NCBI GenBank assembly: GCA_002753515.1
Contig: PEAK01000003.1
Span: 62,001-126,000 of the forward strand
Length of the DNA: 64,000 nt
Direction: 5' to 3'
Source: Magnetococcales bacterium
GTDB lineage: Bacteria > Pseudomonadota > Magnetococcia > Magnetococcales > UBA8363
Shown: in pieces, positions 9,323-29,136 of the stretch
Position numbering within the stretch: position 1 is the first letter of the stretch
Layout of the letters: each line of letters opens with the position of its first letter
Made by a program: the position numbers and the translations under genes
Notes under the pieces: generated by a model
Seen by the model: the letters and a program-made list of their open reading frames with translations, nothing else
The model's database searches: none
Told to the model about the DNA's origin: nothing

Positions 9323-10114
9323 ATGATGAGCCCGTTGACATACGGGCCTCGTCTAAAATTCAGTATTCCGCGATGGGGGGGGGCGCAACAGGGGGCGGCA
9401 CTCCTGATTATCATGGCCGTCATTCTTCTGGGTGGCATTTCCTTGGCCCTGGATGCGCTGTTGATCAAAAGCAAACGCATGCATGGTGACCAAGTTTCCA
9501 ACCTGACCCTGGCGCGGGCGAAAAAGGCTCTGATCGCCTATGCCGCGATGCAGGCGGGGATCCCCCCCCTTGCGGCAAAGTTGTATGGAAAATTGCCGTG
9601 TCCCTATGAGGGCTTTTTTCGTAACAGCGATCCCAATGATGTGGCGGGGGACTACAGTAACAATGCAACCGAGGGTCCGTGTACCATTAACAGTGGTTTT
9701 TTACCTTGGAGGACCCTTGGTTTGCCACCCCTTGTGGATGGGGAAATGGCTCCCATCTGGTATGCGGTGTCGCCAAGGTTCATGACCGGGGATACCGTCA
9801 AGGGTGATTTTCTCTGTAACCAGGCGGACCTGACCATCGTGGGCGATACGACAGCGTATGCCGCCATTGTATTCGCCCCTGGCCAAACGCTGCCTTTGAT
9901 CGCCCCGAAGAGTGACCAAACCCGTCCCAGTGATATCATCGCTGCCAATTTGCTCCAGGAATTTTTGGAAGAAGGCAATGCCGACGGGGACACCACCTAT
10001 GAAATCAGAAATATAAAGACAGACAGATCGGGTGGTTTGGCCGATCCCCCGTTCAACGACCGCTTGTTGGGCATCACCTGTGCGGAAATTTTGAATGCCC
10101 TGACCAGGTTGTAG
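9323..10114 (+). CDS. Atypical pilin-like protein (PilX/GspK-type N-terminus)
   Basis: A 263-residue protein whose N-terminal helix (QQGAALLIIMAVILLGGI, from about residue 22) resembles PilX/GspK-type minor pilins rather than the G-F-[ST]-L-x-E site. Downstream it carries GKLPCPYEGFF and SGFLPWRTLG, the same paired signature as the other three minor pilins. It lies 14 bp after the DUF1566 gene and just before another pilin gene. It probably caps or initiates the fibre, as GspK does, though the assignment rests on the N-terminus and context only. Confidence 0.7.
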   Translation: MMSPLTYGPRLKFSIPRWGGAQQGAALLIIMAVILLGGISLALDALLIKSKRMHGDQVSNLTLARAKKALIAYAAMQAGIPPLAAKLYGKLPCPYEGFFRNSDPNDVAGDYSNNATEGPCTINSGFLPWRTLGLPPLVDGEMAPIWYAVSPRFMTGDTVKGDFLCNQADLTIVGDTTAYAAIVFAPGQTLPLIAPKSDQTRPSDIIAANLLQEFLEEGNADGDTTYEIRNIKTDRSGGLADPPFNDRLLGITCAEILNALTRL

Positions 10115-10175
10115 ACCGGATCGTTGGATCAGGCATCAGGAATCGACCTTGTTCTTTATTTTTTTTGTGGTGACC

Positions 10176-10952
10176 ATGCGCATCTCCTTTCGCTCCCGGT
10201 TTCGCGTTCCCGTCGCACCCTCTGAAACAGGCGGATTGAGCTGCCGGAGGGGATTTACCCTGATTGAAATGGCTTTGATGCTGGTGGTGGCTGGGACGTT
10301 GATGTTGGGGGCTGTTGCCGCGATTCGCTCGCAGTCGAAAAAAACATTGTTGGAGAAGAACCATCAGGCCATGCGAGAGATTGAAGGGGCTTTGTTGGGT
10401 TTTATGGCGGTCAAAGGCCATTTGCCCTGCCCGGATTGGTTTGACCCCGTGACCAACAAGGCCGATGGTGACGAAGATCGGGATCTATCCGTCAACGACA
10501 ATGGGCCGTGCATCAATTCTCTCGATGGTCAACAGTTGGGGTTGCTGCCCTGGCGTACTTTGGGGATCAGTCCCATGGATAAATGGGGTAATTTTTATAC
10601 GTATCGGGTCAGCAGCGCCTATACCGTGGCAGGTGCTCATACCTTGAGCAGCAACGGGGACATGACCTTCTATTCCGAAAATGGCGTTGCTTTGGTAAAC
10701 GGTATCCCGGTGATGGTGGTTTCGCACGGTCCCAATGGTTTTGGTGCCTACAGGATGAGCCTGGATGCAAAAGTCAAAGTACCATTTGTGAATGCCACGC
10801 TCCGGGAGAAGGAAAATATCATCGATGACGGGGGTGACAATACCGACAATCCCAATCCTGAAAGATTTTACCAGGGGGGGGATGATATTCTTATGTGGAT
10901 TCCCCTGGATGTGATCAAACTACAGGCGGTAGAATCCAATTGGTTGCCCTGA
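10176..10952 (+). CDS. Minor pilin with GHLPCPD/LPWRTLG signature
   Basis: Started at the ATG at 10176 (258 residues); an in-frame TTG at 10149 behind AGGA is an alternative. A basic leader precedes RGFTLIEMALMLVVAGTLML, a canonical prepilin cleavage site with Glu5. The body has KGHLPCPDWFDP, LGLLPWRTLGISP and VVSHGPNGFG, each matched in the pilins at 3805 and 6660. It is therefore a third canonical member of this minor-pilin family, transcribed with the atypical pilin 61 bp upstream. Confidence 0.8.
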   Translation: MRISFRSRFRVPVAPSETGGLSCRRGFTLIEMALMLVVAGTLMLGAVAAIRSQSKKTLLEKNHQAMREIEGALLGFMAVKGHLPCPDWFDPVTNKADGDEDRDLSVNDNGPCINSLDGQQLGLLPWRTLGISPMDKWGNFYTYRVSSAYTVAGAHTLSSNGDMTFYSENGVALVNGIPVMVVSHGPNGFGAYRMSLDAKVKVPFVNATLREKENIIDDGGDNTDNPNPERFYQGGDDILMWIPLDVIKLQAVESNWLP

Positions 10953-11058: not shown

Positions 11059-11631
11059 TCATCGCGACAGAGGAACAACAGGCTGCGCGGGTGTCGGCGG
11101 TGTTGGCAACCGCATTTCCTGGACGGGAGGTGTGTAATACCCGGTGGGTTGCAGATTGGGTTGGTTCATCTTCATTACAGCGAACAACGCACCGATAATC
11201 AATGCGGTTTGTGCGACGAACATCCCTGCCGTCCTTTTGATTGTGTCCACCTTGGCGGATTCAATGTCCTTCCGCAATTCAAGTTTGCTTGTTTCAATCT
11301 TGACATCCAATTCTTTGGCCCGGTTTTCGGCTTTGACATCCAGTTCCTTGATGTCGCGCTTCAGGTTGGCTTCAATGGTTGCCATATCCTTGCGAAGGCT
11401 AGATTCTCCATCGGCCAGATCTCGTTTGAGATTGGCTTCAATGGTTACCATCTCCTTGCGAATATCGGCCAAGTCCCGCTTGAGCGCATACATGTCCTGT
11501 TTGGTTGCGAGACGATCTTCAACCATGCTGACAAGAGCTTCTGCCTGGATTTCTGCCTGGCGTTCGTCCACGCCAGCATCACGAAGCTTTTTGACGTAGG
11601 CGTGCGTGTCAAAGGCGATGGTTGTACTCAT
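11059..11631 (-). CDS. DUF1640 coiled-coil membrane protein, copy 1
   Basis: Starts at the ATG at 11631 (190 residues). The N-terminus FDTHAYVKKLRDAGVDERQAE is the hallmark of DUF1640, the bacterial relatives of the mitochondrial CCDC90/MCUR1 proteins. A long coiled coil with ANLKRD and KELDVK repeats follows. One membrane helix (GMFVAQTALIIGALFAVM) and a proline-rich tail close the protein. Function in bacteria is unknown. A longer paralogue with matching flanks lies at 28171-29094, and a C-terminal remnant of a related gene at 62182-62349. Confidence 0.8.
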   Translation of the reverse strand: MSTTIAFDTHAYVKKLRDAGVDERQAEIQAEALVSMVEDRLATKQDMYALKRDLADIRKEMVTIEANLKRDLADGESSLRKDMATIEANLKRDIKELDVKAENRAKELDVKIETSKLELRKDIESAKVDTIKRTAGMFVAQTALIIGALFAVMKMNQPNLQPTGYYTPPVQEMRLPTPPTPAQPVVPLSR

Positions 11632-11673
11632 GGTGGCTTTCTTCCAGGGTGAATCCAACAGTTTTTCACGGAC

Positions 11674-11706: not shown

Positions 11707-12510
11707 TTATTGCGTTGGATTGTCCTTATTTGGTTGCTGGATGGCACGGATGGTTTTAAAGGAATTGATGGCGTTTTCAAAACCGGGGGGGAGCTGAATG
11801 CCGGAAAGTTTTTTCATGGGATCGTCGTCATTGGGATTTTTATCGGCGCTGCTGGCCGCTGCGGGTTGATCCCCATCTTTGGCTGGGTTGCTGGTGGGCA
11901 TGGCGGCGGTTGTTTTGTCACCTTTCTCGCCGTTGTTGTTGGCGGCATTCGTTTCTTTCGTTGCTGGGGGTTCTCGGCGGGCCGTGGCGCGTTCCTTTTC
12001 CGGGATCTCCCAGGTGGATCGTACCCGTTTCTCCACAAAATCGATGGTTTGCCCTGGTTTGACCAGGAAAACTTCTGGAGAATCCACGGAGGAAATCGGC
12101 AATCCGTTAAGGGAGGCGGAAGAGATATAGGCGGCATATCCTTCTCCTTGAAAGGTTGCCTCCAAGGGGATGACCTTGCCGTCCAGCCATAACTCTTGCA
12201 GACCCCTTTCCTTCACGACCATTCCGGTAACCGATACATAACGGGGACCTTTTATGACGGGTGGCAGTTTTTCCTCGGTTTGTTCGGCTTCGTTATTTTC
12301 CTTTTCCTTTTCTGTGGGTGGACCGTGCAGACGCAGACGGTCGAGCAGCATCCGATTGATCGGGGTGTTGAACAGGCGACCCAGCAGCGGTGAGGTTGTG
12401 TCGATAATTTGGTCATCGTTGGCAGCGGGTGAATTTTCCGCAAACGCCAGATATCCAAGGAGCGGGAACCAACTGGCCCATAACACCAGCAGGAAAATAC
12501 ATTTTTTCAA
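11707..12510 (-). CDS. mshK: MshK-like pilus biogenesis protein
   Basis: Start is the TTG at 12510: AGGAGG lies 7 bases upstream and the codon overlaps the stop of the mshJ-like gene (TTGA). The 267-residue product has a signal-like hydrophobic N-terminus and then a small beta domain around RYVSVTGMVVKERGLQELWLDG, the pattern of MshK/GspB/PilP-type periplasmic proteins. The C-terminal third is low-complexity and hydrophilic. It is longer than usual MshK. It probably links the inner-membrane MshI-MshJ complex to the secretin. The name rests on position after mshI-mshJ plus this short motif. Confidence 0.6.
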   Translation of the reverse strand: MKKCIFLLVLWASWFPLLGYLAFAENSPAANDDQIIDTTSPLLGRLFNTPINRMLLDRLRLHGPPTEKEKENNEAEQTEEKLPPVIKGPRYVSVTGMVVKERGLQELWLDGKVIPLEATFQGEGYAAYISSASLNGLPISSVDSPEVFLVKPGQTIDFVEKRVRSTWEIPEKERATARREPPATKETNAANNNGEKGDKTTAAMPTSNPAKDGDQPAAASSADKNPNDDDPMKKLSGIQLPPGFENAINSFKTIRAIQQPNKDNPTQ

Positions 12511-13130
12511 CGTGCTTCCTCCTTTCCCCACAGGGTGAACCAGTTGAGTACGCATTCCCCTTCCAGGGAGGTGGTCCACTCGGTTCGACCATTCAAGACA
12601 TAGCGTGTGGATGTTCGTTTGATACTGCAGGAAGGGACGTTGAAAACGCCATGGGCGCGTTGGTCCAGGGCGGCAAAAAAGTTGAACAGATCGCCTTCGT
12701 GCAAGAGGCTCATGTTGAGAGTCATGATGCTGGCGTACAGGGTGAGGCCATTGGGGGGCAGGATGAAAGGGGCATCAAACGGTTTGCGCACTTCCAATTT
12801 GTAACGTACTGGCGCGGTAAATTTAAATTCATGGCTGATCTGGTCGATGATTTCCAACCATTTGAGCCGGGGTTCCTGGTTGACGACCCCTTTGGCCTCG
12901 AACGATTGGTAGATGGGTTGGTAGCTATGGATCAGTGCCAATTGCTGCTTGTGCTGCAACTCTTTGTTTTCTATTGTTTTTAATTGTTGTTGCATCTCCT
13001 GGAGCTGTTGTGAAACGGTATCACGGTAAAGGATGCCACCTGCTGTGGCGGCAACTCCCAAGAGGATGGCGACGAGGAGGATAATCAGGGCTTTCCAGAG
13101 GAGGCGGGATTCTGGGGAACGTTTAGCCAT
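12507..13130 (-). CDS. mshJ: MshJ/PilO-like pilus assembly protein
   Basis: Start ATG at 13130 overlaps the end of the mshI-like gene by 8 bases. The 207-residue protein has one N-terminal membrane helix (ALIILLVAILLGVAATAGGIL), a coiled coil (residues 45-75) and a small alpha/beta domain, the PilO/GspM/MshJ plan. In the family it pairs with the PilN-like part of MshI to form the periplasmic alignment subcomplex. The overlap with both neighbours shows tight translational coupling. Confidence 0.75.
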   Translation of the reverse strand: MAKRSPESRLLWKALIILLVAILLGVAATAGGILYRDTVSQQLQEMQQQLKTIENKELQHKQQLALIHSYQPIYQSFEAKGVVNQEPRLKWLEIIDQISHEFKFTAPVRYKLEVRKPFDAPFILPPNGLTLYASIMTLNMSLLHEGDLFNFFAALDQRAHGVFNVPSCSIKRTSTRYVLNGRTEWTTSLEGECVLNWFTLWGKEEAR

Positions 13131-14727
13131 GATTGTTTTTTCCAAAATTTATCACAATCCTGAGAATGAAAGACGATTGTTTTGTTTTGGCCAGGTTGGA
13201 GCTATCCAGGACGGCATTTTGGTTGGCGTCCATGGGCATTTTTTCGGTTTCCACTGCCAATACTTCCGGCATGGAGCGCAGAAGGTTGATAAACCGTTCA
13301 ATTTTAAGTTGGGCATCATGGGGGGATTCGTTAAACGGATAAATTTGGCCGGTGAGGCGTACCAACTGATTGGGATTGACATATTGGGCCATGGATGGTT
13401 TGACACGAACGGTTTCAAGGGCACGACCTGGTTTGGGAATATTGGGTTTTTTTGTTTTGGCTGGTTGTTGTGGGGATGATATCTCTTTAGGTGGTGACTC
13501 CCAATCGATGCCGTCGATCCACAGATCATCAAAATTGGCCAGGGCCTTACTGATGAAGATCATGGCATGTTGCGGTGTGGATTTGAGTTCGTTAATTTTT
13601 TGCATGATTTGGGCGGAGGCGACCCGGTCCCGACCGCCACCCACCTTTTCAAACTCTTCGATGGCGTATTTACGCAAGGAGAGTTGGGCGGCATCCAGTT
13701 TTTGCAGCAAAGCTGGCAATTGTTCCGAGTTGCGATATCCTTCATAAAATGCGACCAGTCCCAATCCGACGCCACATATCAGCAAGATGATGGCCAACGT
13801 TCTGAGCCAATAGCATATTTCAGCAATGCGGTGGCGCTGAATCAGCTCGTGCTGGGCATAGTGGTTGCTGACGCGGTGTTTCAGGAGAAACTGACCAAAC
13901 AGGATATCGACTTTTTCATCCGGCAACCCGTTTTTCAAACCGTAGTCCAGGGCCAAGGTTTCGGCGTCAATGGGGTGGATTTGGTGCGTGGCCATGGGGT
14001 GGGGATTGTTGACTATATAGGCCAACAATTCTTTGGGGCATAAGATGAAAACATCGAGTTTTTGATCGTTGGCAAGGAGTCGCAAAGTACCGAGATAACC
14101 CATCAGGCGGGAGATCTCACCGTGAATGAACAGCATCACGGTTTCCGGTTCCCGGGAGGGTAAATGGGAGAGGCGGCTGACCTTGATTTTTTTATTTTGT
14201 ACAAAAATTTGCCTGAGTCCGCCCGAGTTGGGGCTGACCAGAAGAACGGAAGTGTCTTTGGGCAGGATGCGGTGAAAGACCTGAAGTGCCAGCAACGGTA
14301 GTGACCAGATGCCGACGATTTGTGCTTGGCGGCGGGTGAGTATTTCCATCCAGGGGGTCACGTTTTCGGGATCGGTCAGTCCGACGAACAGGGCGTGTTC
14401 TTTTTTTTTGTTTCCCTGCACCAATCCTTGGAAGCGATGGTAAACGTAGGGGGTATTGCGAAAAATTCGGCTGGCGCGTTGTTGGAGGATTTTTTGCCGA
14501 TTGCGTCCCATGAGTTTGGGGACGACTTCCTCATGGATTTCCTCTTCGGTGACATCGATGAGCAGGTATACGGGACCGTTCAGTTGGATTTGATCGAGAT
14601 ACTGTTCAAATTTTTGCAACCCATCCTTACTGAGTTCCAGATGGGGTCCTTCAAAAAAAATTCCTGCATGCCATTCATAGGCGGTGACGACGTGGTCCGA
14701 AAGGAAGAAAAAAAATTTACGAACCAT
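13123..14727 (-). CDS. mshI: MshI-like (PilM-PilN fused) pilus assembly protein
   Basis: Started at the ATG at 14727, 11 bases after the mshG stop (534 residues). Roughly the first 300 residues form a cytoplasmic PilM-like domain. A membrane helix (LRTLAIILLICGVGLGLVAF) follows at about 310-330, then a periplasmic coiled-coil/PilN-like region ending in ILRIVINFG. MshI proteins combine PilM and PilN roles and hold the assembly platform together. Residues 80-295 align clearly with residues 100-310 of the fusion protein at 16013-18691 (shared VGLTDPENVTPW/SGLTEPRMVQPW, GIWSLPLL/GLWSIPLL, DILFGQFLLKH/DLLFAQYLLQH). Confidence 0.75.
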   Translation of the reverse strand: MVRKFFFFLSDHVVTAYEWHAGIFFEGPHLELSKDGLQKFEQYLDQIQLNGPVYLLIDVTEEEIHEEVVPKLMGRNRQKILQQRASRIFRNTPYVYHRFQGLVQGNKKKEHALFVGLTDPENVTPWMEILTRRQAQIVGIWSLPLLALQVFHRILPKDTSVLLVSPNSGGLRQIFVQNKKIKVSRLSHLPSREPETVMLFIHGEISRLMGYLGTLRLLANDQKLDVFILCPKELLAYIVNNPHPMATHQIHPIDAETLALDYGLKNGLPDEKVDILFGQFLLKHRVSNHYAQHELIQRHRIAEICYWLRTLAIILLICGVGLGLVAFYEGYRNSEQLPALLQKLDAAQLSLRKYAIEEFEKVGGGRDRVASAQIMQKINELKSTPQHAMIFISKALANFDDLWIDGIDWESPPKEISSPQQPAKTKKPNIPKPGRALETVRVKPSMAQYVNPNQLVRLTGQIYPFNESPHDAQLKIERFINLLRSMPEVLAVETEKMPMDANQNAVLDSSNLAKTKQSSFILRIVINFGKNNHG

Positions 14728-14738
14728 GAAGGGCAATG

Positions 14739-15941
14739 TTAAAGTTTTTCAATCAGTTGATAAATGGGTCCGAGAACCGACATGATGACCCAGCCAATGA
14801 CGCCACCCAGGACCACGGTTAACAGGGGTTCGATAGCGGTTTGCAGACGGGCGATGTTTTCTTTGACATCGCGATCATAAAAGTAGCTGATATTGAGCAA
14901 GGATTGGTCCAACTTGCCGAAGGATTCCCCGACCTGAAGCATGTTGAGGACCAGAGGTGGGAAAAATCCCACGGCCTGGAAGCTTTCGGTGATGCCCTTG
15001 CCTTCCGAAACCATGCGTCGGGCCCGTTCCAAAGCTTCACGAATGACCAGGTTGTCGCTTAACCCTTCACTAATGTTCAAGCTGTCCAGGACCGGGATGC
15101 CCGACTTGTACATGAGTGCGAAGGAGCGGGCGAAGCGTACCAGGATGATTTTGCGAATCAAGGGACCGAACATCCACAATTTCAGTTTGAATTGGTCGAT
15201 ACGGCGTTGCATGGTGACGCTGATTTTGACGGCAAACTTGATGATGATAAAGACAAGCAAGGGTATGGGGAGCAGCAGATGCCACCAGGTTGAAATAAAG
15301 TCGGAGACTGCGATCAGGGCACGGGTGTGAAGTGGGAGGTCGCCGCCCATTTCCAGGATGAACTGCATGAGTTGTGGCACCAGGTAGATCATCAGGAAGA
15401 ACACCAGACCGACGACGGCGGTACCGACGATGGCGGGGTAGGTGATGATTTTTTTGGCTTGGCTGACCAGTTCATCTTCCCATTTCAGGTTTTCGCTCAG
15501 GTCACGGAATATTTCCCCCAGGTTTCCGGTTTGTTCGCCGACGTGGATGAGGCGGATAAAGATGGGGCTGAATGTTTCCGGGTGTGATTCCATCGCTTGG
15601 GACAGGAGCCGTCCGCTGCGAATATCTTCGATCAGTGCGGTGATCAGTTCCTTGAAGGCGACATCTTCCACCCCGGTGCGCAGGCTGACCATCCCTTCGA
15701 TCAGGGGCACCCCTGACAGGGCCATTTGTTCCATGTTGAAGCAAAAGACGATCAGGTTGCGGCGTCCGATACTGCGGCGGCGGGTCAACAGGCTTAAACC
15801 GCTGAAATTTCCTTTTAGGCTGATGAGCATGAGCCCCATTTGATCGAGACGCATCTCCAATTCATCGACATTGGCGGCATCGATGGCCCCTTCGCGGATA
15901 TCGCCATTATTGTCGGTTGCCTTGTAAAAATATTTGGGCAC
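14739..15941 (-). CDS. mshG: MshG inner-membrane platform protein (GspF/PilC family)
   Basis: Start is the GTG at 15941, 9 bases after AGGAGG, giving VPKYFYKATDNNGDIREG, the usual beginning of GspF/PilC proteins. At 400 residues it is full length. It has two T2SSF repeats, each a cytoplasmic helical bundle with membrane segments (YPAIVGTAVVGLVFFLMIYLVP, then LLTVVLGGVIGWVIMSVLGP). The protein forms the rotor-like membrane platform turned by the MshE ATPase. Placement between the ATPase gene and mshI matches known pilus operons. Confidence 0.9.
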   Translation of the reverse strand: MPKYFYKATDNNGDIREGAIDAANVDELEMRLDQMGLMLISLKGNFSGLSLLTRRRSIGRRNLIVFCFNMEQMALSGVPLIEGMVSLRTGVEDVAFKELITALIEDIRSGRLLSQAMESHPETFSPIFIRLIHVGEQTGNLGEIFRDLSENLKWEDELVSQAKKIITYPAIVGTAVVGLVFFLMIYLVPQLMQFILEMGGDLPLHTRALIAVSDFISTWWHLLLPIPLLVFIIIKFAVKISVTMQRRIDQFKLKLWMFGPLIRKIILVRFARSFALMYKSGIPVLDSLNISEGLSDNLVIREALERARRMVSEGKGITESFQAVGFFPPLVLNMLQVGESFGKLDQSLLNISYFYDRDVKENIARLQTAIEPLLTVVLGGVIGWVIMSVLGPIYQLIEKL

Positions 15942-16012
15942 TCTGACTGACCTCCTTTTAATGCGGGACGACAAACCAAGGGGCGGGCTGATCGGATTGT
16001 TCAAATAAAGCT

Positions 16013-18691
16013 TTAGAGTTTCAATCCCAAAACGCGAGTGACCTCATCAATGCTCGTAACCCCATCCAAAACCAGTTTTTTGCCTGAATCAGCCATGATC
16101 GGCAACTGTTTTTCCAAGGCGAGTCTGCGAAAATCGGCCTGGGGGGCGTTGCGTGAAATGAGATCGTTAAAGTCGTCGTCAATGACCAGAGTTTCCATGA
16201 TGCATGTTCTTCCATGGTAACCGGTATTGTCGCAAGCGCGACACCCCTTTGCGCCGTAGATTTTTCCCACTTCGGCGTGGTTATGAAAGAAAGACCCGAT
16301 GAAAGGGTCTGAAGGTATTTCGTGACGGCACTGGGTACAGAGTTTGCGCACCAAGCGCTGGGCCACGATGCCGATAATGTTACCAGCCAACATATCGGAG
16401 CGCAAACCAATGTTGAGCAGGCGGAAGATGGCGGCCATGGCGGAATTGGCGTGCAGGGTGGAGTAGACCTGATGGCCGGTCATGGCGGCACGCAGGGCCA
16501 TTTCCGCTGTTTCCAGGTCACGTATTTCTCCGACCATGATGATGTCAGGGTCCTGACGCAGCATGGAACGGACTCCCGAGGCGAAATCGAGGTCCACCGC
16601 TTTGTTGACCGATGTTTGCAAAATGGAATCCAGTGGAATTTCCAAAGGATCTTCCAGGGTCATGACATTTTTTTCCAAGGTGTTGATGGTGGAAAGCATG
16701 GCATAGAGGGTGGTGGTTTTGCCGCATCCCGTGGGACCGGTGACCAGGATGATGCCTTCGGGTCGGCGCATGAGTCCCCGGAGGGTGGTGATATCGTTTT
16801 GGTTCAGACCCAGGTGTTCCAGATCGACGAGCCTGCGGTTGCGGTCCAGGATGCGCAGGACGATATTTTCGCCATGGTTCGTAGGTTGGATGGAAACGCG
16901 GAAATCGATGCTGGAGTTGGCGATTTCCAGGGAGAAATGGCCATCCTGGGGGGTACGGGTTTCGGAGATGTCCATCCCGGCCATGACTTTGATACGCACT
17001 ACTAGGGCGGGCAAATATTTGCGGTTGAGGATGCGGACCTCGCGCAGGACGCCGTCGATACGATAGCGGATACGAATGAGGCTTGCCATCGGGTTGAGGT
17101 GCAGATCGGATGCGGCCCGTTTGACGGCGTCGGTGAGCAGGGCGTTGACCAGGCGCAGCATGGGGTTGCTGAAATTGCCGTCATCGACGTTCAGACTTTC
17201 GCTGTCCACCTCGCCGGTTTCCAATTCGTTGAGGATGCCGTCCAGCGACAGTTCGATACCGTAGGCGTTGTCGATGGCGGCGGTGAGTTCGCTTTCACCG
17301 GCAAGCTTGGGTTTGACGGAGACATCTTCGGGCAGGAGCGACTGCAATTTGTCGAGTGCCGCCATATTGAAGGTATTGGCTGTGGCAACGGTCAATGTTT
17401 GTGTCGTCGGGTTCCAGTCCAGGGGGAGGATGTTGTGTCGTTTGGCGAAATGTTTGGGTATGAAATGCAATGCCTGATAATCGAGTGTTCCCAGGTTCAG
17501 GTTGACGATTTCCTGTTCCAGAGTGGCTCCCAGGAGGTCGCGCATCCGTTCTTCGGAGATGAATCCCAGGGTGATCAGCACCTTGCCGATGGGATATCCC
17601 AGGCGTTGTTGTTCCGCCAGGGCAATTTCCAGTTGGTGGCTGGTGATGGCTTTCATTTCGACCAGGGCATCGCCCACCCGGTTTTTGTATTGCGGCGCTG
17701 GTTTTTCCGTTTCCGGGGTGACGCTTGTTTCGAAAGGGCGGACAGGGGTGGGGATGCCTGGATTGTAGTGGCTTCCAGGGAGATGTTGCAGCAGGTATTG
17801 GGCAAACAGCAGATCCATGCGCTGTTGGGGGGGTGTTCCCGATGATTCGAGATGTTTCAGCCACGCTTCCAGGGGGAGGTGGGTGAATTCTTTATGGGCA
17901 TACCATTGGTATCGCTGTGCCGCAGGGGTGAACATTTCATGGTGAAACGGCAGGTAAACGTCGAGACGGGCATCCCGACTGGGGAGGCGACGCAGACCGA
18001 TGAGGTAGCGACGGGTGCGCTCGATTTCAGCGGTGAGGGCTGTGGCCAGATCCTGGGTTTGTCGGCGCGGGGCCAGGCGGCTGATGATCAACCGGCCCGC
18101 CGTGAACAGGCTGTGACGTTGTCCAGCGGCGTGAAGGCTGACGAGAAGAATGTTTTCCGAGGTATTGGGTATGGTATTAAAAATTTTTTGACTCAAAAGG
18201 GGGATTGACCACAGGCCGGCAATGGGTCTGCCCTCTTCTTGCAGTATGGAGATCCAGGGTTGCACCATGCGGGGTTCGGTGAGTCCGGAAAAGAGGATTT
18301 GTTCTTTTCCCGATGGTAATCGGCCTTGGGGTGTGGCGCGACGATAAGGGGTATGGCGGAACAGCCGTTCCAGGCGTTTTTTCAAGGCGCCGTGGCGATT
18401 ATAGAATTGCAGGCTGGGGATGGTTTGATGGTGCAGGGCGTCGTCGATCAAATCGGCCAGCAGGATAATGCTGCCTTGGGGCAAATATTCCTGACGAAAA
18501 AATGTACGAAATTTTTGTTGGCCCTCGGGGGATTGACTGAAAATTTCTTCGGTATCGGCCTGGCTGTTGCCGACAGGTCGCAGGCGCACTTCCCGGTCTT
18601 GGAGAAGGAGCAACCAGCCCGGGTTTGAGAAACGGACGGGGAGAAGGGTCTGCAAAGTGTGGATCAAAGGTTTGAAAAAATTGTTATCCAT
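16013..18691 (-). CDS. MshI-like domain fused to MshE-type assembly ATPase
   Basis: An 892-residue protein from the ATG at 18691. Residues 100-310 match the cytoplasmic PilM-like part of the separate MshI (GLTEPRMVQPW, GLWSIPLL, DLLFAQYLLQHLPGSHY). The match ends where MshI begins its membrane helix. Residues 335-500 are a GspE N1-type domain. Residues 505-892 are a full type II/IV secretion ATPase: Walker A GPTGCGKTTT (652), Asp box TLEDPLE, Walker B QDPDIIMVGEIRD (713), His box, and zinc cysteines 785/788/817/820. The ATPase looks active. A second unfused MshE lies at 24646, so this may be a paralogue for a distinct step. Confidence 0.85.
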   Translation of the reverse strand: MDNNFFKPLIHTLQTLLPVRFSNPGWLLLLQDREVRLRPVGNSQADTEEIFSQSPEGQQKFRTFFRQEYLPQGSIILLADLIDDALHHQTIPSLQFYNRHGALKKRLERLFRHTPYRRATPQGRLPSGKEQILFSGLTEPRMVQPWISILQEEGRPIAGLWSIPLLSQKIFNTIPNTSENILLVSLHAAGQRHSLFTAGRLIISRLAPRRQTQDLATALTAEIERTRRYLIGLRRLPSRDARLDVYLPFHHEMFTPAAQRYQWYAHKEFTHLPLEAWLKHLESSGTPPQQRMDLLFAQYLLQHLPGSHYNPGIPTPVRPFETSVTPETEKPAPQYKNRVGDALVEMKAITSHQLEIALAEQQRLGYPIGKVLITLGFISEERMRDLLGATLEQEIVNLNLGTLDYQALHFIPKHFAKRHNILPLDWNPTTQTLTVATANTFNMAALDKLQSLLPEDVSVKPKLAGESELTAAIDNAYGIELSLDGILNELETGEVDSESLNVDDGNFSNPMLRLVNALLTDAVKRAASDLHLNPMASLIRIRYRIDGVLREVRILNRKYLPALVVRIKVMAGMDISETRTPQDGHFSLEIANSSIDFRVSIQPTNHGENIVLRILDRNRRLVDLEHLGLNQNDITTLRGLMRRPEGIILVTGPTGCGKTTTLYAMLSTINTLEKNVMTLEDPLEIPLDSILQTSVNKAVDLDFASGVRSMLRQDPDIIMVGEIRDLETAEMALRAAMTGHQVYSTLHANSAMAAIFRLLNIGLRSDMLAGNIIGIVAQRLVRKLCTQCRHEIPSDPFIGSFFHNHAEVGKIYGAKGCRACDNTGYHGRTCIMETLVIDDDFNDLISRNAPQADFRRLALEKQLPIMADSGKKLVLDGVTSIDEVTRVLGLKL

Positions 18692-19050
18692 GATTTCGTT
18701 ACCATGTGTTTCAGTCGATGAAATACAAAATCCACCCCCTGCTTACGTAACCATACCACGGTCCTGATTATTGATCATCCGTTGATGGTGTCCAACGGTC
18801 GGATTGACGAGTCACTTTTTTTCTGGCCAGTGCGACAAGGCATCTTTGGACTGGTTGAATTTCAAGCGAAAGTTTGGCTCTAAATTTGCTGGTCCAAGTC
18901 GGGTGCCCCCTGTCTCAAGGCATGTTTCCCGGTAACGAATGTCAGGGCGAATCCAAGGATTACCGGGATATCGCCCAACGTGGCCAGGGTTGCCCTGTAT
19001 CTCCTGCGAGGGGGGACAACGTTGTTTCATGGTGGACTAAAGTGGATACT
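18692..19050. other. Divergent control region between the two msh operons
   Basis: About 360 bp separate the fusion ATPase gene (leftward) and mshM (rightward). An interrupted inverted repeat (CCGGTAA near 18930 and TTACCGG near 18960) is the only structure I see. The region must contain the promoters of both operons, but no strong consensus boxes stand out. Confidence 0.45.
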
Positions 19051-20328
19051 ATGTACAGGAAACACTTCGGACTTGACCGGTTACCGTTTGCCAACCCGCT
19101 TGACGAAGATTTTTTTTATCCCGGGAGTTCGCATCTGGGACTCCTGGATGCCATGGAACAGGCTATTTTGGATGGCGAAGGGGTGATCAAGGTGATCGGC
19201 AAGGTGGGGACGGGCAAAACCACCTTATGCCGTCTTTTGTGCCAACGTATGCCGGAGCGGGTTCATACCGCTCTGATTCTCGATGCCAGAATTGCCCCTG
19301 GGGAGCTGTGCAACGCCCTGTTGGAGGAGTTTCAGCAATGTCCAACGTCGGTCCATGACGCGCATGGCAGCCGCCGGCAATTACAGGATTATCTCATTCA
19401 ATTGTACGCTGCGAGGGAACAGGCGGTACTGATGGTGGATGAGGCCCAGTCCATGGCGCCGGAAACGTACCGGGAATTGCTGTTTCTCAGCAATGTTGGG
19501 ACGGGATATCACCCGATATTGCAAATGGTTTTTTTTGGCCGACCGGAATTGGATCAGGTGTTGGCGGAACCTTCCTTGCGTCCGCTTCATGATCGTGTAA
19601 CCCGGAGCTTGACGGTACCATTTCTTTCCCTGGAGGAGACGGGGAACTTTATCCAAGCCCGTCTGAATCGTGCCAGCGATAAGGGGATCGGGGAACTGTT
19701 CACACCCGGAGCGGTGGCAAAAATACATCAGATGGCTTGTGGAAGTTTGCGGCGCGTCAACGTTCTGGCACATGACGCCATGGTTTACGCCTTTCAGGCT
19801 GGGGTAGCGCGTGTGGAAAAGAGACATGTTCGCCTGTGCCAACCGGGGAGGAATGGGATTGTTTTCCGGCTTCATCGGCTGTTTGCCGGCATGTTGGATT
19901 CAAGAGGTTTCCGGGGTTCTTTGTCCCGGGTGCCTGTGGCGGTGTTTGTGACCGCAGGTTTGATGCTGGTCTTGGGGACGCTATCGTTACGCTGGGGTGT
20001 GCCGTTTGTGAAGGAAAGAGTGGCCAAAACCAAGGCGGTCTCGCCGGTTCCGATGAAAGTCAAAGTGGGCTATGTACCCACACGGGCGCTGCCCGGGACT
20101 TTGGATTTGGAAGCCCAAATGAACAAGGTGGTGGATGGATCTTTATCCACGGTGGGAAATGTTGATGTGCCTATTTTCAGTCTTGTATCGCAAAGGGTAC
20201 CCCGTTTGCCCAAGCGGGAAATCGTCCAGAAAAGGGTACCACAGACCGGGTTTCCAGCTATGGGTGCGTTGCAACCCGGTCGCGACGAGACAAAAGCGGC
20301 CCATCTCACTGCCAAGGTCATCAATTAA
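19051..20328 (+). CDS. mshM: MshM-like AAA ATPase (ExeA/GspA family)
   Basis: Started at the ATG at 19051 (425 residues); a GTG three codons upstream is possible. The opening MYRKHFGLDRLPFANPLDED is typical of ExeA/MshM. Walker A is GKVGTGKTT and Walker B is AVLMVDEAQSM, within an AAA_22 domain up to about residue 270. A membrane helix follows (VPVAVFVTAGLMLVLGTL) and then a roughly 110-residue tail. Family members help place or assemble the secretin through peptidoglycan. The tail is longer than in many MshM proteins. It overlaps the mshL start by one base. Confidence 0.85.
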   Translation: MYRKHFGLDRLPFANPLDEDFFYPGSSHLGLLDAMEQAILDGEGVIKVIGKVGTGKTTLCRLLCQRMPERVHTALILDARIAPGELCNALLEEFQQCPTSVHDAHGSRRQLQDYLIQLYAAREQAVLMVDEAQSMAPETYRELLFLSNVGTGYHPILQMVFFGRPELDQVLAEPSLRPLHDRVTRSLTVPFLSLEETGNFIQARLNRASDKGIGELFTPGAVAKIHQMACGSLRRVNVLAHDAMVYAFQAGVARVEKRHVRLCQPGRNGIVFRLHRLFAGMLDSRGFRGSLSRVPVAVFVTAGLMLVLGTLSLRWGVPFVKERVAKTKAVSPVPMKVKVGYVPTRALPGTLDLEAQMNKVVDGSLSTVGNVDVPIFSLVSQRVPRLPKREIVQKRVPQTGFPAMGALQPGRDETKAAHLTAKVIN

Positions 20329-22127
20329 TGTGCGCCGAATGGAACGCGTCCGTTTGTTTGCCCCGTAAAGGAGGTCCTTTGGCCCTCTTTTTGGTGGCGG
20401 TGTTCTCTCTGATGGCGTGTTCTGGTTGTCGCTCGACTGCGGCCGGGGAGGAGGCCGGGGATGCGAACGGTTCTTCAGCCGCAGTGACCGGTGTCCCGCA
20501 TATTTCCAGAGGCAAATCCCCCCCGGTTCGTGCCCAATCCGCTGTGAAGCGGGATGAATTAACTGAAAGCGATTGGCTTTCGATGCTTCCTGCCCCTCCG
20601 GGCTTGCCGGCGGTGGACAATGCCATTCCCGATCTGGCCACAACAACTACTTTTCTCATGCCGCAGGTCAATGCCGCCCCGCATGCCACCTATTCGGTGA
20701 CCGTGACCGATGCCCCCTTGCGGGATGTCCTTTTCGCCCTGGCCCGGGATGCCAACCTGGACATTGATATCTACCCGGGCATTGATGGAAAGATTACGAT
20801 TAACGCCATCGATCAAACCTTGCCGACCATTTTGAATCGCATCTCCGAGTACGCGGGATTAAAATATCGAATAGGTCGCGAGGCGATTACCATTGCCCCC
20901 GATGCGCCGTTTCGCCGCAACTATAAATTAGACTATATTTTAAACAGCCGTAAACTTGAAACCAAGATGGAGGTTACCACCAACGTCTCTTCGACGGGTA
21001 CCGGCAACAACAATTCATCGATCAACCTGTCGACAAACAGCGCCGTGGATTTTTGGACCGATATTGTCGCCAACCTGGAAGCCATGCTTGGTCCTTCGGT
21101 TAAGGAACAACCACAGCGTGTGATACTGAACCGCACCGCCGGTATTTTCAGTATCTTGGCAACCAGCCGTCAGCATGAGGAAATCCAAAACTTTTTTGAT
21201 CAAATCGCCCGTGATTCCCAACGTCAGGTGTTTATTGAGGCGGCTATCGTCGAGGTTAATCTTTCCGATCAGTATCAAGGCGGGGTTGATTGGAGCATGG
21301 TCCGCTCCAATATCAATCCGGATATGACCAATAACCAGAACATGCTGGCCAGTCGGATTAAGAGTGGTCCCGAGCTGACGACTCCTGGTCTTTCCATTGT
21401 GACGCATGGGGTGTTGGGACATACCGACCTGACGGCGACGGTACGCATGCTTTCGCACTTTGGCAACTCCAAGGTTCTTTCCAGTCCCAGGCTTACGGTC
21501 ATGAATAATCAGGCGGCTGTGTTGCGGGTGACGGAAAATAAAGTTTATTTTGAAATTCAGGTGACTCCGAAGCAGGAAACAACGAATGTTAATGGTACTA
21601 CAGCAACCCATTCCGTTACCGATGAAAAAACTGCGGTTACTATTCGGACCGTTCCGATTGGCATCATCCTGCAGGTGATTCCGCAGATCAGCGAAGGGGA
21701 TGTGATTTCTCTCAATATTCGTCCCACCATCCAGCGTGTTTCCTCTTCGGTGAAAAATCCCGACCCGAATTTTTATAAAGCGGATTCCAAGGTTGAGGTT
21801 CCCGAAGTCCCGGTGGTTCAAGTGCAGGAAATGGATTCCACATTGCGGGTGAACAGCGGGCAATTGGCGGTTATGGGTGGATTGATGGAAAACAGCTTTG
21901 AAAAGGATATGGACGCTGTTCCATTTCTCGGCAAGCTGCCGATCGTGGGGTCGCTGTTCAGTTTCCGCAATGATCAGCAAACCAAGAAAGAATTGATCAT
22001 CTTTTTGCGTCCGACCATCATTCACGAGGCCAGGGACATGGAACAGCTGGGTGGCCGGGAACTGTACGAATCCAGCAACAGGGGGATAGAAAAAGATTGG
22101 GATAAACTGGGTGTTGGTCCTCCATGA
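20328..22127 (+). CDS. mshL: MshL outer-membrane secretin
   Basis: The ATG at 20328 shares a base with the mshM stop; a TTG at 20379 behind AAAGGAGG is an alternative start. The N-terminus ends in the lipobox LMAC, so it is probably a lipoprotein. Next come an STN-like domain (DAPLRDVLFALARDANLDID), an N-domain and the secretin core (QVFIEAAIVEVNLSDQYQGG, VLSSPRLTVMNNQAAVLRVT, VNSGQLAVMGGLM, LIIFLRPTII). It forms the multimeric outer-membrane channel for the fibre. Length and domain order match MshL. Confidence 0.9.
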   Translation: MCAEWNASVCLPRKGGPLALFLVAVFSLMACSGCRSTAAGEEAGDANGSSAAVTGVPHISRGKSPPVRAQSAVKRDELTESDWLSMLPAPPGLPAVDNAIPDLATTTTFLMPQVNAAPHATYSVTVTDAPLRDVLFALARDANLDIDIYPGIDGKITINAIDQTLPTILNRISEYAGLKYRIGREAITIAPDAPFRRNYKLDYILNSRKLETKMEVTTNVSSTGTGNNNSSINLSTNSAVDFWTDIVANLEAMLGPSVKEQPQRVILNRTAGIFSILATSRQHEEIQNFFDQIARDSQRQVFIEAAIVEVNLSDQYQGGVDWSMVRSNINPDMTNNQNMLASRIKSGPELTTPGLSIVTHGVLGHTDLTATVRMLSHFGNSKVLSSPRLTVMNNQAAVLRVTENKVYFEIQVTPKQETTNVNGTTATHSVTDEKTAVTIRTVPIGIILQVIPQISEGDVISLNIRPTIQRVSSSVKNPDPNFYKADSKVEVPEVPVVQVQEMDSTLRVNSGQLAVMGGLMENSFEKDMDAVPFLGKLPIVGSLFSFRNDQQTKKELIIFLRPTIIHEARDMEQLGGRELYESSNRGIEKDWDKLGVGPP

Positions 22128-24634
22128 GCCTATTGCTTGAAACACTGAAGAATGCCGAGAATCTCCGTCGCGCAAAGCCATCTTCGACGGTGGGGGGTGT
22201 TGTTCGTGTTGCAGGGGACGATCACAACAAAGGGGAAGAGCCTGCGGTTGTTTCTGAGCCGTCCCGTTCCGAGCTTGTGCTGGATTTACCGGATGTCGTG
22301 GACAAGGAAGCCCGGGCATCTGAAAAAAACGATGTCAATCTGGAAAAGGCGTCGCTTGGCGCGGCTGGTGAGACGACCGGGTTTGAACTCACCTTTGAGT
22401 CGGAACCCGCCAAAGGGGAATTGCCTGCTGGTGAACCCGTTCCCATTCCGTCGGAGCGTACGGCACCTCCTCTGAAATCGGCATCTATGGAATTGGAGGA
22501 ATGGGATTTTCATTCCTCCTGGGACGATGGTTTTCCCGACGCCATTGCGATGGAAGAAAAAATTCCCGAGTCCCGGAAAGATGGAAAAACTGTTGCCGAA
22601 CATGGGGAAGCAGCTTCCCATGTGGACCGGGAGATGGATGCCCTATTCGGGGAAATATCCGTTGAATCTTCCAATCAGGAAGGGTTGCGGCAGGAGGAAT
22701 TGCAACTTTTGTCTGATACCCCTCCCGAGAAGGCGTGGGTGGGATTTCAGGCAATAGATGATAATTCAGGCGATGTTGGGGACGGTAAGGGGAAGGAAAC
22801 TCCGCTGACGGTTGCTGACCCTGTTTCGTCCCCGCCATTGGAAGGGGGAAACAACGCGGTCAGTACGGCAACCGTTTCATTGACGAATGAGGAGACGTCA
22901 TCTCCCCCCTTGGCGTCCAACCGTGAACCCGTCCCCGGGTTGGCGGTGGAGTCCGTTGCAGCGCCTCCCCTGGCTTCACAGCCAATTTCCTTGAAAAAAG
23001 TGGATCCGGCATTATCCCAGGGGGGTGATGAAGAGCCGCCGCCGACATCCCCGCCGATACCCCCGGTGAACAAGGCGCATCGCAGTATGGGCGGTGGCGC
23101 GTTGCTTGTCCGGTTGTCCTTCTGGGGCAAAATGGGGCGTTGGTGGGGATCCTGGCGCCCTGCTGGTGGGTTGGCATCGTCAGGGGGGGGGGTATCCGCA
23201 CCGGCACCGGTTCTCCCGAAACCGTCCGGCACGGTGAAAGCGAGTGGCATGGCATGGTCAGAAGCTGCAAAATTAATGAATGCCCGCCGGTTGCATGAAG
23301 AAAATGTAAAGAGACGTAAATTGTTGTATGCATCGGGTGCGGTGTTGGCGGTGATTGTCATGGTTGTCATAGGTTATGTGACCAATTATTTTTTGGCCCC
23401 CCTCGAAGAGGAGACGGTACTCAACAAAAAGGTGACCACCCAGCCGCAAATGGGGTTGGGGGCATCGGTCAGACCTGGGACGGGTGGCGGAGTCCCTGGC
23501 AATCAGGGAGGGGTGATTGCCGTCCGGGGTCCGGGTCATCAACCGGGCTCCAATCAGGGAAACATGGCCAACATGCCCATGGAAACAATCCCTGCCACCC
23601 CGGTATCGACTCAGGAATCAGGGTCAATACCAGGAAAGGATGCCAATCTTGGAAAAGCTTCGGTTGCCACGGGGGCGATGTCGACCGAGGCAAGGCCGGA
23701 AATGTCTGTGGTTCCTCCGGCTGGTACGTCTCTGCAAGGGGGAATTGCATTACCCCCGGGGAATGGGCAAAAGGAGGGAATGGGGCAAAAACGGCGGGGA
23801 CGTCCCGTAGGACCGCGGATGGATAATGCGATGTCGGTGGCTTCCACACCGGCTAAGGAATCGGAACCAACATCGGTCAAGTCGACAGGTGCGCACCGTC
23901 CCAAATCAACATTGGATGATCGTGCGGCAATGCCCTTGTTTCGACAGGGATCGGCGCCGCCGCCCGTTACCGAAGGGGTGCCGGCGGCTGTGGGATCATT
24001 GGCCGAAGGCAGGGGGAATGTACCGGGCCAGCGGGTCAAGCGGAAGGATATCGAACTGCGTAATGAGGAGATCATCCAGGGATCCGTTGCGTTCAAGCGA
24101 GGGGATTTGGACGAGGCGGAGAGATTGTTTTTATTGGTTTATACGGCTGACAAACGGGATTCCCGTGCCATGATCGGACTGGCATCGGTGGCGCTGCGTC
24201 GCGGTGATACGCGCAGTGCGGAGACTTATTATCGCAAAATATTGCAATCCGACCCGAAGAATTCCATAGCCATGGTTGGTTTGTCGGGGATTCAGGGGAG
24301 TGCCCGGGTGGAAGGGGAAGAGGGGCGTTTGCGGCAACAATTGCGGGAGACCCCCGATGCGACGCATGTGCATTTTACACTGGGCAACATGATGGCGGCT
24401 CAAAGGCGTTGGTCCGAGGCTTGGGTCTCTTTTGAAAACGCCAGCCGTCTGGATCGCGACAACCCGGAAATAACCTTGAACCTGGCTGTTTCCCTGGATC
24501 ACCTTCGGCGCATTCCCGAGGCGATCAAGACCTATCAGCGGGCATTGGATGCCGCAGGCCGTTTCAACAAGGTCAATTTTAGTGTCGATGCGGTCCGCCG
24601 CCGTATTGCCGTGTTGCAGTCGGGAAAACTTTAA
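22124..24634 (+). CDS. mshN: MshN-like TPR protein
   Basis: The ATG at 22124 overlaps the mshL stop (ATGA). Of 836 residues, the first twenty (MSLLLETLKNAENLRRAK) match the short cytoplasmic start of MshN-type proteins. A long acidic low-complexity region follows, one membrane helix near residue 405 (LLYASGAVLAVIVMVVIGYV), a Gly/Pro-rich linker, and C-terminal TPR repeats from about residue 645 (GSVAFKRGDLDEAERLF onwards). MshN is a periplasmic TPR scaffold of the MSHA machine. This one is much longer than usual because of its disordered segments. Confidence 0.7.
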   Translation: MSLLLETLKNAENLRRAKPSSTVGGVVRVAGDDHNKGEEPAVVSEPSRSELVLDLPDVVDKEARASEKNDVNLEKASLGAAGETTGFELTFESEPAKGELPAGEPVPIPSERTAPPLKSASMELEEWDFHSSWDDGFPDAIAMEEKIPESRKDGKTVAEHGEAASHVDREMDALFGEISVESSNQEGLRQEELQLLSDTPPEKAWVGFQAIDDNSGDVGDGKGKETPLTVADPVSSPPLEGGNNAVSTATVSLTNEETSSPPLASNREPVPGLAVESVAAPPLASQPISLKKVDPALSQGGDEEPPPTSPPIPPVNKAHRSMGGGALLVRLSFWGKMGRWWGSWRPAGGLASSGGGVSAPAPVLPKPSGTVKASGMAWSEAAKLMNARRLHEENVKRRKLLYASGAVLAVIVMVVIGYVTNYFLAPLEEETVLNKKVTTQPQMGLGASVRPGTGGGVPGNQGGVIAVRGPGHQPGSNQGNMANMPMETIPATPVSTQESGSIPGKDANLGKASVATGAMSTEARPEMSVVPPAGTSLQGGIALPPGNGQKEGMGQKRRGRPVGPRMDNAMSVASTPAKESEPTSVKSTGAHRPKSTLDDRAAMPLFRQGSAPPPVTEGVPAAVGSLAEGRGNVPGQRVKRKDIELRNEEIIQGSVAFKRGDLDEAERLFLLVYTADKRDSRAMIGLASVALRRGDTRSAETYYRKILQSDPKNSIAMVGLSGIQGSARVEGEEGRLRQQLRETPDATHVHFTLGNMMAAQRRWSEAWVSFENASRLDRDNPEITLNLAVSLDHLRRIPEAIKTYQRALDAAGRFNKVNFSVDAVRRRIAVLQSGKL

Positions 24635-24645
24635 GATATTGAACC

Positions 24646-26400
24646 ATGATCCCATCCCCTCCACCTGCCGAGCCTCCTAAAGCGGCTTCTTCGACTTCCG
24701 AGAACAAACCCCGTCGGCTGGGTGAATTGTTGCTGGCGGGAATGATCATCACCCCCGATCAGTTGCGCATTGCCCTTCACGAACAGAAAAAGACCAAGGA
24801 ACAGTTGGGACGCATTCTGGTCAAGCTGGATCTGGTGCCCGAAGCGCTGATGCGCGACCTTTTGGGGGCGGCCCTGGGCAAGGGCAGCATTGATCTGAGT
24901 CAAAGCGACATCAATCCGGAAGCGGTGAAGATGATCCCGAAAAAGTTGGTTGAACGTTTTCGGATCATGCCGGTGGATTGGGACGAACAAAAATTGGTAT
25001 TGACGGTGGCGATGCCCAATACCCTGGATGTGGGCATATTGGATAAAATTCAGGCGCGCCTGAAGCCGGGGACCACGATCAAGCCTGTGTTGGCGGGGGA
25101 GTCGGAAATTGGTCATGCCATAGATAAATATTATGGATTTGAACTTTCCCTCGATGGGATCATGCGGGAAATTGAAACGGGTGAGGTGGATTTGGACAGT
25201 TTGGCCTCGGCGGAGGCGGGTGAGTTCAGCCATCCCATGGTGCGTCTGGTGGATTCGCTGTTGGCGGATGCCGTACGCCGGGATGCTTCTGACATTCACA
25301 TTGAACCGGAGGCGGGATTTGTGCGCATTCGTTACCGCATTGACGGGGTGATGGCGGAGATGCGCTCTTTGCATCGGGATTATCTTTCTGGATTGGTGGT
25401 GCGTTTGAAAGTGTTGAGCAAGATGAACATTGCCGAAACCCGGGCTCCCCAGGATGGACGGTTCACCTTGAGGGTGTCCAAGCGTGAGATTGATTTTCGC
25501 GTGGCTTCGCAACCCACTACGCATGGTGAAAACATTGTGTTGCGCATTCTGGATCGCAACAAGGGCATTTTACGTATGGAATATTTGGGTTTGGGTGAGC
25601 ATACCATGCTGACCCTGAAAATGATGATGGCTCAGCCCGTGGGGATTATTTTGGTGACGGGTCCGACCGGAAGTGGTAAGACGACGACGCTCTATGCGAT
25701 GCTTAATTTTTTGAACACGCCTGAAATTAATATTATGACCTTGGAAGATCCCGTAGAGTATCCCATTCAAATGATTCGGCAGACCTCGGTCAATGCAGCG
25801 GCCAATCTGGGTTTTTCCGAGGGGATTCGCTCCATATTGCGGCAGGATCCCGATGTTATCCTGGTGGGTGAAATTCGCGACTTGGATACGGCGCAGATGG
25901 CATTACGGGCGGCGATGACCGGGCACAAGGTATTTTCCACGTTGCATACCAACTCAGCATTGGGTGCCTTTCCCAGGTTGTTTGATATCGGCATCACGCC
26001 GGACACCCTTTCGGGTAATGTGACCGGGATATTGGCGCAACGGTTGGTGCGTAAACTGTGTCCGCAATGCAAGCGCCCCAGCGAACCCACATCGTTGGAA
26101 CGGTCGTTGTTGGGTGTTGGTGACCATGAAGATGTGGTCATATACCATGCCATCGGTTGCAGTGCCTGTTATGAGGTGGGATATAAAGGGCGTATTACGG
26201 TGATGGAAGCCATCCCGATTGACGATGATTTTGATAATTTGATTTCTCATCGCGCTACAAAAAGCGATTTTTCCCGAGTGGCTCACGAGAAAGGCTTGCC
26301 GTCCATGGCCGATAATGGCATGCGTCTTGTTTTGAAGGGAATCGTCAGCCTGGATGAAATCAGCCGTGTGTTGGATCTTTCATATCGTATTCAACACTGA
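24646..26400 (+). CDS. mshE: MshE assembly ATPase (GspE/PilB family)
   Basis: A 584-residue ATPase. Residues 25-180 form the N1 domain that binds the platform and, in MshE, c-di-GMP. Residues 195-584 form the ATPase core with Walker A GPTGSGKTTT (339), TLEDPVEYP, Walker B RQDPDVILVGEIRD, the His box TGHKVFSTLHTNS and a CPQC...CSAC zinc site. It powers pilin polymerisation through MshG. It ends the rightward mshM-L-N-E operon. It is close to the ATPase half of the fusion at 16013-18691, clearly a paralogue. Confidence 0.9.
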   Translation: MIPSPPPAEPPKAASSTSENKPRRLGELLLAGMIITPDQLRIALHEQKKTKEQLGRILVKLDLVPEALMRDLLGAALGKGSIDLSQSDINPEAVKMIPKKLVERFRIMPVDWDEQKLVLTVAMPNTLDVGILDKIQARLKPGTTIKPVLAGESEIGHAIDKYYGFELSLDGIMREIETGEVDLDSLASAEAGEFSHPMVRLVDSLLADAVRRDASDIHIEPEAGFVRIRYRIDGVMAEMRSLHRDYLSGLVVRLKVLSKMNIAETRAPQDGRFTLRVSKREIDFRVASQPTTHGENIVLRILDRNKGILRMEYLGLGEHTMLTLKMMMAQPVGIILVTGPTGSGKTTTLYAMLNFLNTPEINIMTLEDPVEYPIQMIRQTSVNAAANLGFSEGIRSILRQDPDVILVGEIRDLDTAQMALRAAMTGHKVFSTLHTNSALGAFPRLFDIGITPDTLSGNVTGILAQRLVRKLCPQCKRPSEPTSLERSLLGVGDHEDVVIYHAIGCSACYEVGYKGRITVMEAIPIDDDFDNLISHRATKSDFSRVAHEKGLPSMADNGMRLVLKGIVSLDEISRVLDLSYRIQH

Positions 26401-28150: not shown

Positions 28151-28170
28151 GGAATAAAAGTCTTCAGTTG

Positions 28171-29094: not shown

Positions 29095-29136
29095 GATGGC
29101 TTTTTTCCAGGCTGAATCCAACCAATTTTTACGGAT

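Follow-up and report, generated by a model that had tools for sequence, protein, structure and literature searches.

A predicted adaptor domain of MshI type fused to an MshE-like motor ATPase in Magnetococcales

Introduction

Can the adaptor that couples a pilus motor to its machine become part of the motor itself? In Thermus, the motor PilF is bound by PilM, which couples it to PilMNO, and PilMN stimulates the ATPase activity of PilF (PMC6325625). The PilM interface of PilB has been placed on the ND1 domain (PMC8389850), and N1E of GspE and the cytoplasmic part of GspL bind 1:1 (PMC6882859). Competition for the PilM stator occurs between extension and retraction ATPases (PMC11656802). The gene described here bears on how PilM, GspL and MshI adaptors grip pilus motors, at what ratio, and whether motors are rivals for such adaptors. 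An earlier note, made from the letters alone, had read positions 16013-18691 of the window (the whole 64,000-nucleotide stretch analysed here, from the Magnetococcales, a group of magnetotactic-type bacteria) as an MshI-like cytoplasmic domain joined to a complete MshE-type ATPase. In this study, we analysed the architecture, predicted fold, distribution and origin of this fusion.

Results

Architecture of the fusion

The coordinates in the earlier note were right, and the strand, which it had left unstated, is minus. The gene is a single frame of 892 codons without an internal stop, and its parts are as follows.

16013-18691, minus strand: fusion gene, 892 aa, MshI-type cytoplasmic (PilM/GspL-like) domain followed by MshEN and a GspE/MshE ATPase
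17747-18628, minus strand: fused adaptor domain, residues about 22-315, predicted actin-like PilM/GspL fold
17681-17746, minus strand: linker, residues 316-337, pLDDT below 50, length and sequence variable among relatives
17246-17680, minus strand: MshEN domain, residues 338-482
16034-17167, minus strand: T2SSE ATPase domain, residues 509-886

The C-terminal part, residues 338-892, is a complete GspE/MshE-type ATPase. Pfam placed T2SSE at residues 509-886 (E 1.6e-126) and MshEN at 394-482 (E 2.5e-13), and it gave no match, including PilM_2 and T2SSL, for residues 1-334. The window protein has Walker A (GPTGCGKTT) and Walker B (GEIRD) motifs, together with the Asp and His boxes and both CxxC pairs. 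The earlier claim of an intact ATPase part is borne out by the Pfam domains and by all of these catalytic motifs. Hydropathy of the fusion nowhere exceeds 1.27, compared with a peak of 2.45 at residue 313 of MshI, and the fusion has no membrane helix.

The ATPase part is 54% identical to the unfused neighbour MshE. Because it fell below the NCBIfam equivalog cut-offs for both GspE (506 vs 630 bits) and PilB (490 vs 676 bits), as the unfused MshE also did, we filed it as MshE-like. It also grouped with MshE in the tree, not with the other GspE/PilB-type ATPases of the genome. The window genome also has a 761-aa ATPase of GAF-MshEN-T2SSE architecture (L006:1492-3774).

The c-di-GMP receptor motif of MshEN consists of two 24-residue RLGxx..Q motifs in tandem (PMC5013675). 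The first half is kept in the fusion (R338, L354, L358 and Q361), and R338, L354 and Q361 are invariant across the fusions. The Arg and Gln of the second half are absent in the fusions and mostly also in the neighbouring MshE; despite this, the fusion scored 53.5 bits with the NCBIfam MshEN motif model against a cut-off of 38. Judged from these residues, control of the fusion by c-di-GMP is uncertain.

Gene order in the window

The genes around the fusion are those of an MSHA-type pilus cluster.

9323-10952, plus strand: two prepilin-like genes, 9323-10114 and 10149-10952
11707-12579, minus strand: MshK-like (PilP position), no Pfam match, assigned by gene order and relatives
12507-13145, minus strand: MshJ-like (PilO position), one N-terminal membrane helix
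13123-14736, minus strand: unfused MshI-like, with a PilM-like cytoplasmic half, a membrane helix and a PilN-like periplasmic half
14739-16004, minus strand: MshG/PilC/GspF-like platform protein
18874-20328, plus strand: MshM-like AAA ATPase, first in the divergent operon
20328-22127, plus strand: MshL-like secretin
22124-24634, plus strand: MshN-like TPR protein
24646-26400, plus strand: unfused MshE ATPase

The fusion heads an operon of the order fusion-MshG-MshI-MshJ-MshK, in which it is tightly spaced with MshG; the true MshG start is likely the GTG near 15941, behind AGGAGG. The divergent operon, MshM-L-N-E, ends with the unfused MshE and has no MshG of its own, so that the two motors of window-type clusters appear to share one platform protein. 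The unfused MshI (13123-14736, minus) and MshE (24646-26400, plus), which the earlier note had listed beside the fusion, are both present in the window.

Several other genes accompany the cluster. Prepilin-like genes also lie downstream of MshK in related clusters. The MSHA region is flanked by two CCDC90-like coiled-coil proteins (11059-11658 and 28171-29121), the second of which carries many repeats of the type KAETRFKELDV. A 568-aa protein at 26642-28348 has no Pfam match, and its relatives lie near MshE/MshM genes in several related clusters.

Homology and predicted fold of the N-terminal domain

When the whole genome was searched with the fusion, the only strong non-ATPase match was the MshI-like frame at 13123-14736 (minus strand), which aligned with fusion residues 54-309 at 33% identity (123.7 bits, E 6.3e-36). 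Family profiles built from 27 fused and 22 MshI sequences were then compared by hhalign. Columns 26-330 of the fused profile aligned on columns 6-312 of the MshI profile with a probability of 100 and an E-value of 2.1e-78 over 305 columns. The conserved residues of the two families largely coincide, and chance similarity of motifs is ruled out by E-values of 6e-36 for the sequences and 2e-78 for the profiles. The shared domain ends at a juxtamembrane NHYA/SHY motif, about 20 residues before the membrane helix of MshI. Thus the N-terminal part is MshI-like and the match stops just short of the helix, both as the earlier note had it.

Sequence searches of solved structures with the fused-domain and MshI profiles gave no match, and a fold search was therefore needed. 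Residues 1-499 of the fusion were modelled with AlphaFold2 together with 26 relatives. The mean pLDDT was 78.9, with a disordered linker at 316-337. The best fold match of the adaptor part in the PDB was PilM of P. aeruginosa (5eou, E 1.9e-8), followed by GspL bound to GspE (4pht, E 7.5e-7) and EpsL (1yf5, E 2.4e-6); FtsA and the c-di-GMP domain of MshE (5htl) were also matched. TM-scores of the adaptor part, normalised by target length, were moderate (about 0.4-0.56), so that in this model the fold class is secure and the fold details are not. The model of the window MshI (pLDDT 78.5) gave a similar list with PilM on top. The case that would have undone the fusion reading of the earlier note, an N-terminal part unlike PilM/MshI in fold, is excluded by the PilM/GspL fold found.

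These models indicate that the fused domain and the cytoplasmic half of MshI are PilM/GspL-type actin-like domains, of a branch missed by the Pfam PilM and GspL models. The unfused MshI likewise had no Pfam PilM_2 or T2SSL match. By sequence, the fused domain is best assigned to the MshI type rather than to PilM or GspL proper, because PilM_2 and T2SSL do not match it and the window genome has ordinary PilM and GspL genes elsewhere. The window MshI is a GspL-like PilM+PilN protein, and the fused piece therefore corresponds to its PilM-like half without the membrane anchor. The nucleotide-binding signature of true PilM was not apparent, when read by eye, in either the fused domain or MshI.

Distribution and selection

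The phylum sample comprised 399 genomes, 48 in the class and about 350 outside it; a scan of genome contigs used a ten-sequence alignment. Within the class, 27 of the 48 genomes, drawn from 7 families, have full-length or near full-length fusions, and six of these 27 carry two copies. The fusions are 43-98% identical single open frames with the same junction in the alignments. Outside the class, none of the roughly 350 genomes sampled from the phylum contained a fusion; a related domain occurs in only 6 of them, always in frames of 484-609 aa. Loci L171-L175 have the canonical order MshM-L-N-E-G-I(-J) with MshE and MshI separate. At this sampling, the fusion looks specific to Magnetococcales. 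A 968-aa frame in G039 was rejected as a fusion; it is homologous to MshE only (query residues 322-890) and falls among MshE in the tree.

The dN/dS of the fused domain was 0.13 between G000 and G001 (0.05 for the ATPase part, with few changes underlying both values) and 0.15 between G005 and G002 (0.07 for the ATPase part). With values of 0.13-0.15, the domain is kept by purifying selection.

The fusions occur in two types of setting. Type A, that of the window, heads a fusion-MshG-MshI-MshJ-MshK operon. Type B is a free-standing fusion-MshG pair elsewhere in the genome, with its own MshG, beside or instead of a canonical cluster L-N-E-G-I-J. Type B fusions (loci L026-L028, L030-L034 and L116) have LWQDPD for LRQDPD and GE[IV]HD for GEIRD, which makes the ATPase activity of this branch uncertain on sequence grounds. 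The fusion sits between MshE and MshG in G039, G040 and G042. The 99% complete genome G019 has a canonical MSHA cluster and lacks the fusion, indicating that the fusion is not essential to such machines.

Three fusion-bearing genomes, G014, G015 and G037 (93, 99 and 96% complete), yielded no MshI, no MshJ and no stand-alone PilN-like partner corresponding to the membrane/periplasmic half of MshI. As these are draft genomes, the absence of MshI and MshJ is likely rather than certain. MshM, MshL and MshN are present in G014, and no unfused MshE, MshI or MshJ was found in that genome.

Other features of these three genomes were observed. In G014, three consecutive MshM-like AAA genes lie beside MshL and MshN (L167:11840-17052). 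In G037, a GspE-type ATPase carries an FHA domain at its N-terminus (L168:13474-16128), and its gene lies beside genes for an MshG-like protein, a secretin and a protein-kinase-like protein. The type B pair of G015 is adjoined (L135:12751-16091) by genes for an ABC transporter ATPase, a prepilin-like protein, an unknown protein and an ABC-2 permease. Near other MSHA clusters, parts of this set recur, and we take the set to be reminiscent of PilGHI of Myxococcus.

Origin of the fusion

Trees of the ATPase and adaptor parts were made by quick searches with SH-aLRT support alone. The ATPase tree places all fusions in a single clade (98), and fusions and window-type MshE are united at 100, apart from MshE of the second type of cluster and of other classes. 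The fused domains also came together in the adaptor tree (88, with the G014 row unplaced), apart from both kinds of MshI. These trees support a single fusion event followed by a split into types A and B as a probable history. The position of the fusion between MshE and MshG in G039, G040 and G042 points to a tandem duplication of mshE, after which the 5' part of an MshI gene would have been captured. The earlier suggestion of possibly two motor types is strengthened, in that fusion and MshE form separate clades and some relatives have a second fused paralogue.

Discussion

The physical joining of an adaptor-type domain to the motor, put forward in the earlier note, follows from the covalent fusion. 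In the fusion, this domain stands at the N-terminus, just before MshEN, and in the ratio at which such partners bind. We propose, with a probability of roughly 60%, that the fusion is a second dedicated extension motor of the MSHA-type pilus with a built-in docking adaptor. The part of an MshI-type gene that encodes the cytoplasmic domain would have been joined to the 5' end of a duplicated mshE, and each motor subunit would then carry its own adaptor at 1:1. Such a motor could seat itself on the MshG encoded directly downstream without waiting for MshI, would not be a rival of MshE (or PilT) for MshI, and may still be tunable through MshEN. Two extension motors are known to serve one pilus in A. 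baylyi (PMC8213720). All of this presumes that the fused domain works as an adaptor in the motor, as we infer. If the built-in domain can serve alone, fusions without MshI and MshJ are expected, as in G014, G015 and G037. Tentatively, the fusion-MshG pair might even be a self-docking motor that no longer needs an alignment complex of MshI/MshJ type and is the sole MSHA-type motor in these three genomes; we hold this further step to be less likely than not.

The fused domain could instead pair with the cytoplasmic domains of membrane-anchored MshI, so that fusion and MshE form a composite or alternating motor on one mixed MshI ring. PilM/GspL domains pair likewise, conserved residues are largely common to the fused domain and MshI, and in window-type clusters the fusion, MshG, MshI, MshJ and MshK share an operon and there is one MshG for both MshE and the fusion. 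This reading is weakened by the three genomes, 93-99% complete, that have the fusion without MshI halves or MshJ, and by the free-standing type B pairs with their own MshG, and we regard it as rather doubtful. Placement directly before MshEN behind a disordered linker would also suit a regulatory decoy, in which the fused domain covers, in cis, the face where MshEN binds MshI, and the motor is autoinhibited until a signal arrives. Other GspE-type ATPases of these genomes do have N-terminal signalling domains (GAF at L006, FHA at L168). However, the fused domain keeps the conserved core of its family and is not degenerate, and no signal-sensing addition was seen in the fusion, which leaves a decoy unlikely.

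It is also conceivable that type B fusions are used in a different machine. They lie apart from MSHA clusters, their Walker regions are changed, and at the G015 locus genes for an ABC transporter (ATPase and permease) and for prepilin-like proteins are also present. That the fusion as such no longer serves pilus extension and, with a platform protein of its own, powers a secretion machine or pseudopilus is nevertheless very improbable, since the window fusion is of type A, lies inside an MSHA cluster and has canonical motifs. The draft state of the window genome (134 contigs) might suggest that assembly or a frameshift joined two genes, a case the earlier note had raised against itself. The junction recurs in independent assemblies, in single frames 43-98% identical from 27 genomes of 7 families, and the fused domain is under purifying selection; the chance of an artefact is negligible, and assembly error is ruled out.

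As a natural covalent adaptor-motor, the fusion fixes the ratio at 1:1, and its contact should be stable enough for structure work. An old fusion maintained by selection, it allows the docking of pilus motors to be tested directly. It is also an example in nature of a machine with one platform gene and two likely extension motors, only one of them self-docked. Within the type IV filament superfamily it is, further, an instance of duplication combined with domain capture.

A literature search of open-licence papers returned no description of such a fusion. The parts and their contact are known already; the papers searched did not describe the covalent joining, its class-wide conservation or the presence of unfused partners alongside it. 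MshI and MshE of MSHA pili resemble the fusion in both domains and in the neighbourhood MshM-L-N-E-G-I-J-K, whereas in the fusion the cytoplasmic part of MshI is covalently on the motor, without the membrane helix, and separate MshI and MshE remain. In the type II secretion system, the cytoplasmic domain of GspL and GspE N1 (PDB 2BH1, 4PHT) are partners of the same kinds, bound 1:1, but they belong to two proteins and GspL is membrane-anchored. PilM of type IVa pili, the best fold match of the fused domain, is an actin-like adaptor that couples PilB/PilF to the platform; unlike the fused domain, it is a separate protein and has an ATP-binding lysine (K26 in Thermus, PMC6325625) that is not apparent here. 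PilB and TfpB of A. baylyi are two extension ATPases on one pilus, as proposed here, and no adaptor domain is described for TfpB in that work (PMC8213720). The GAF- and FHA-T2SSE ATPases of these genomes carry an extra N-terminal domain as the fusion does, but theirs are sensory domains, not a component of the machine.
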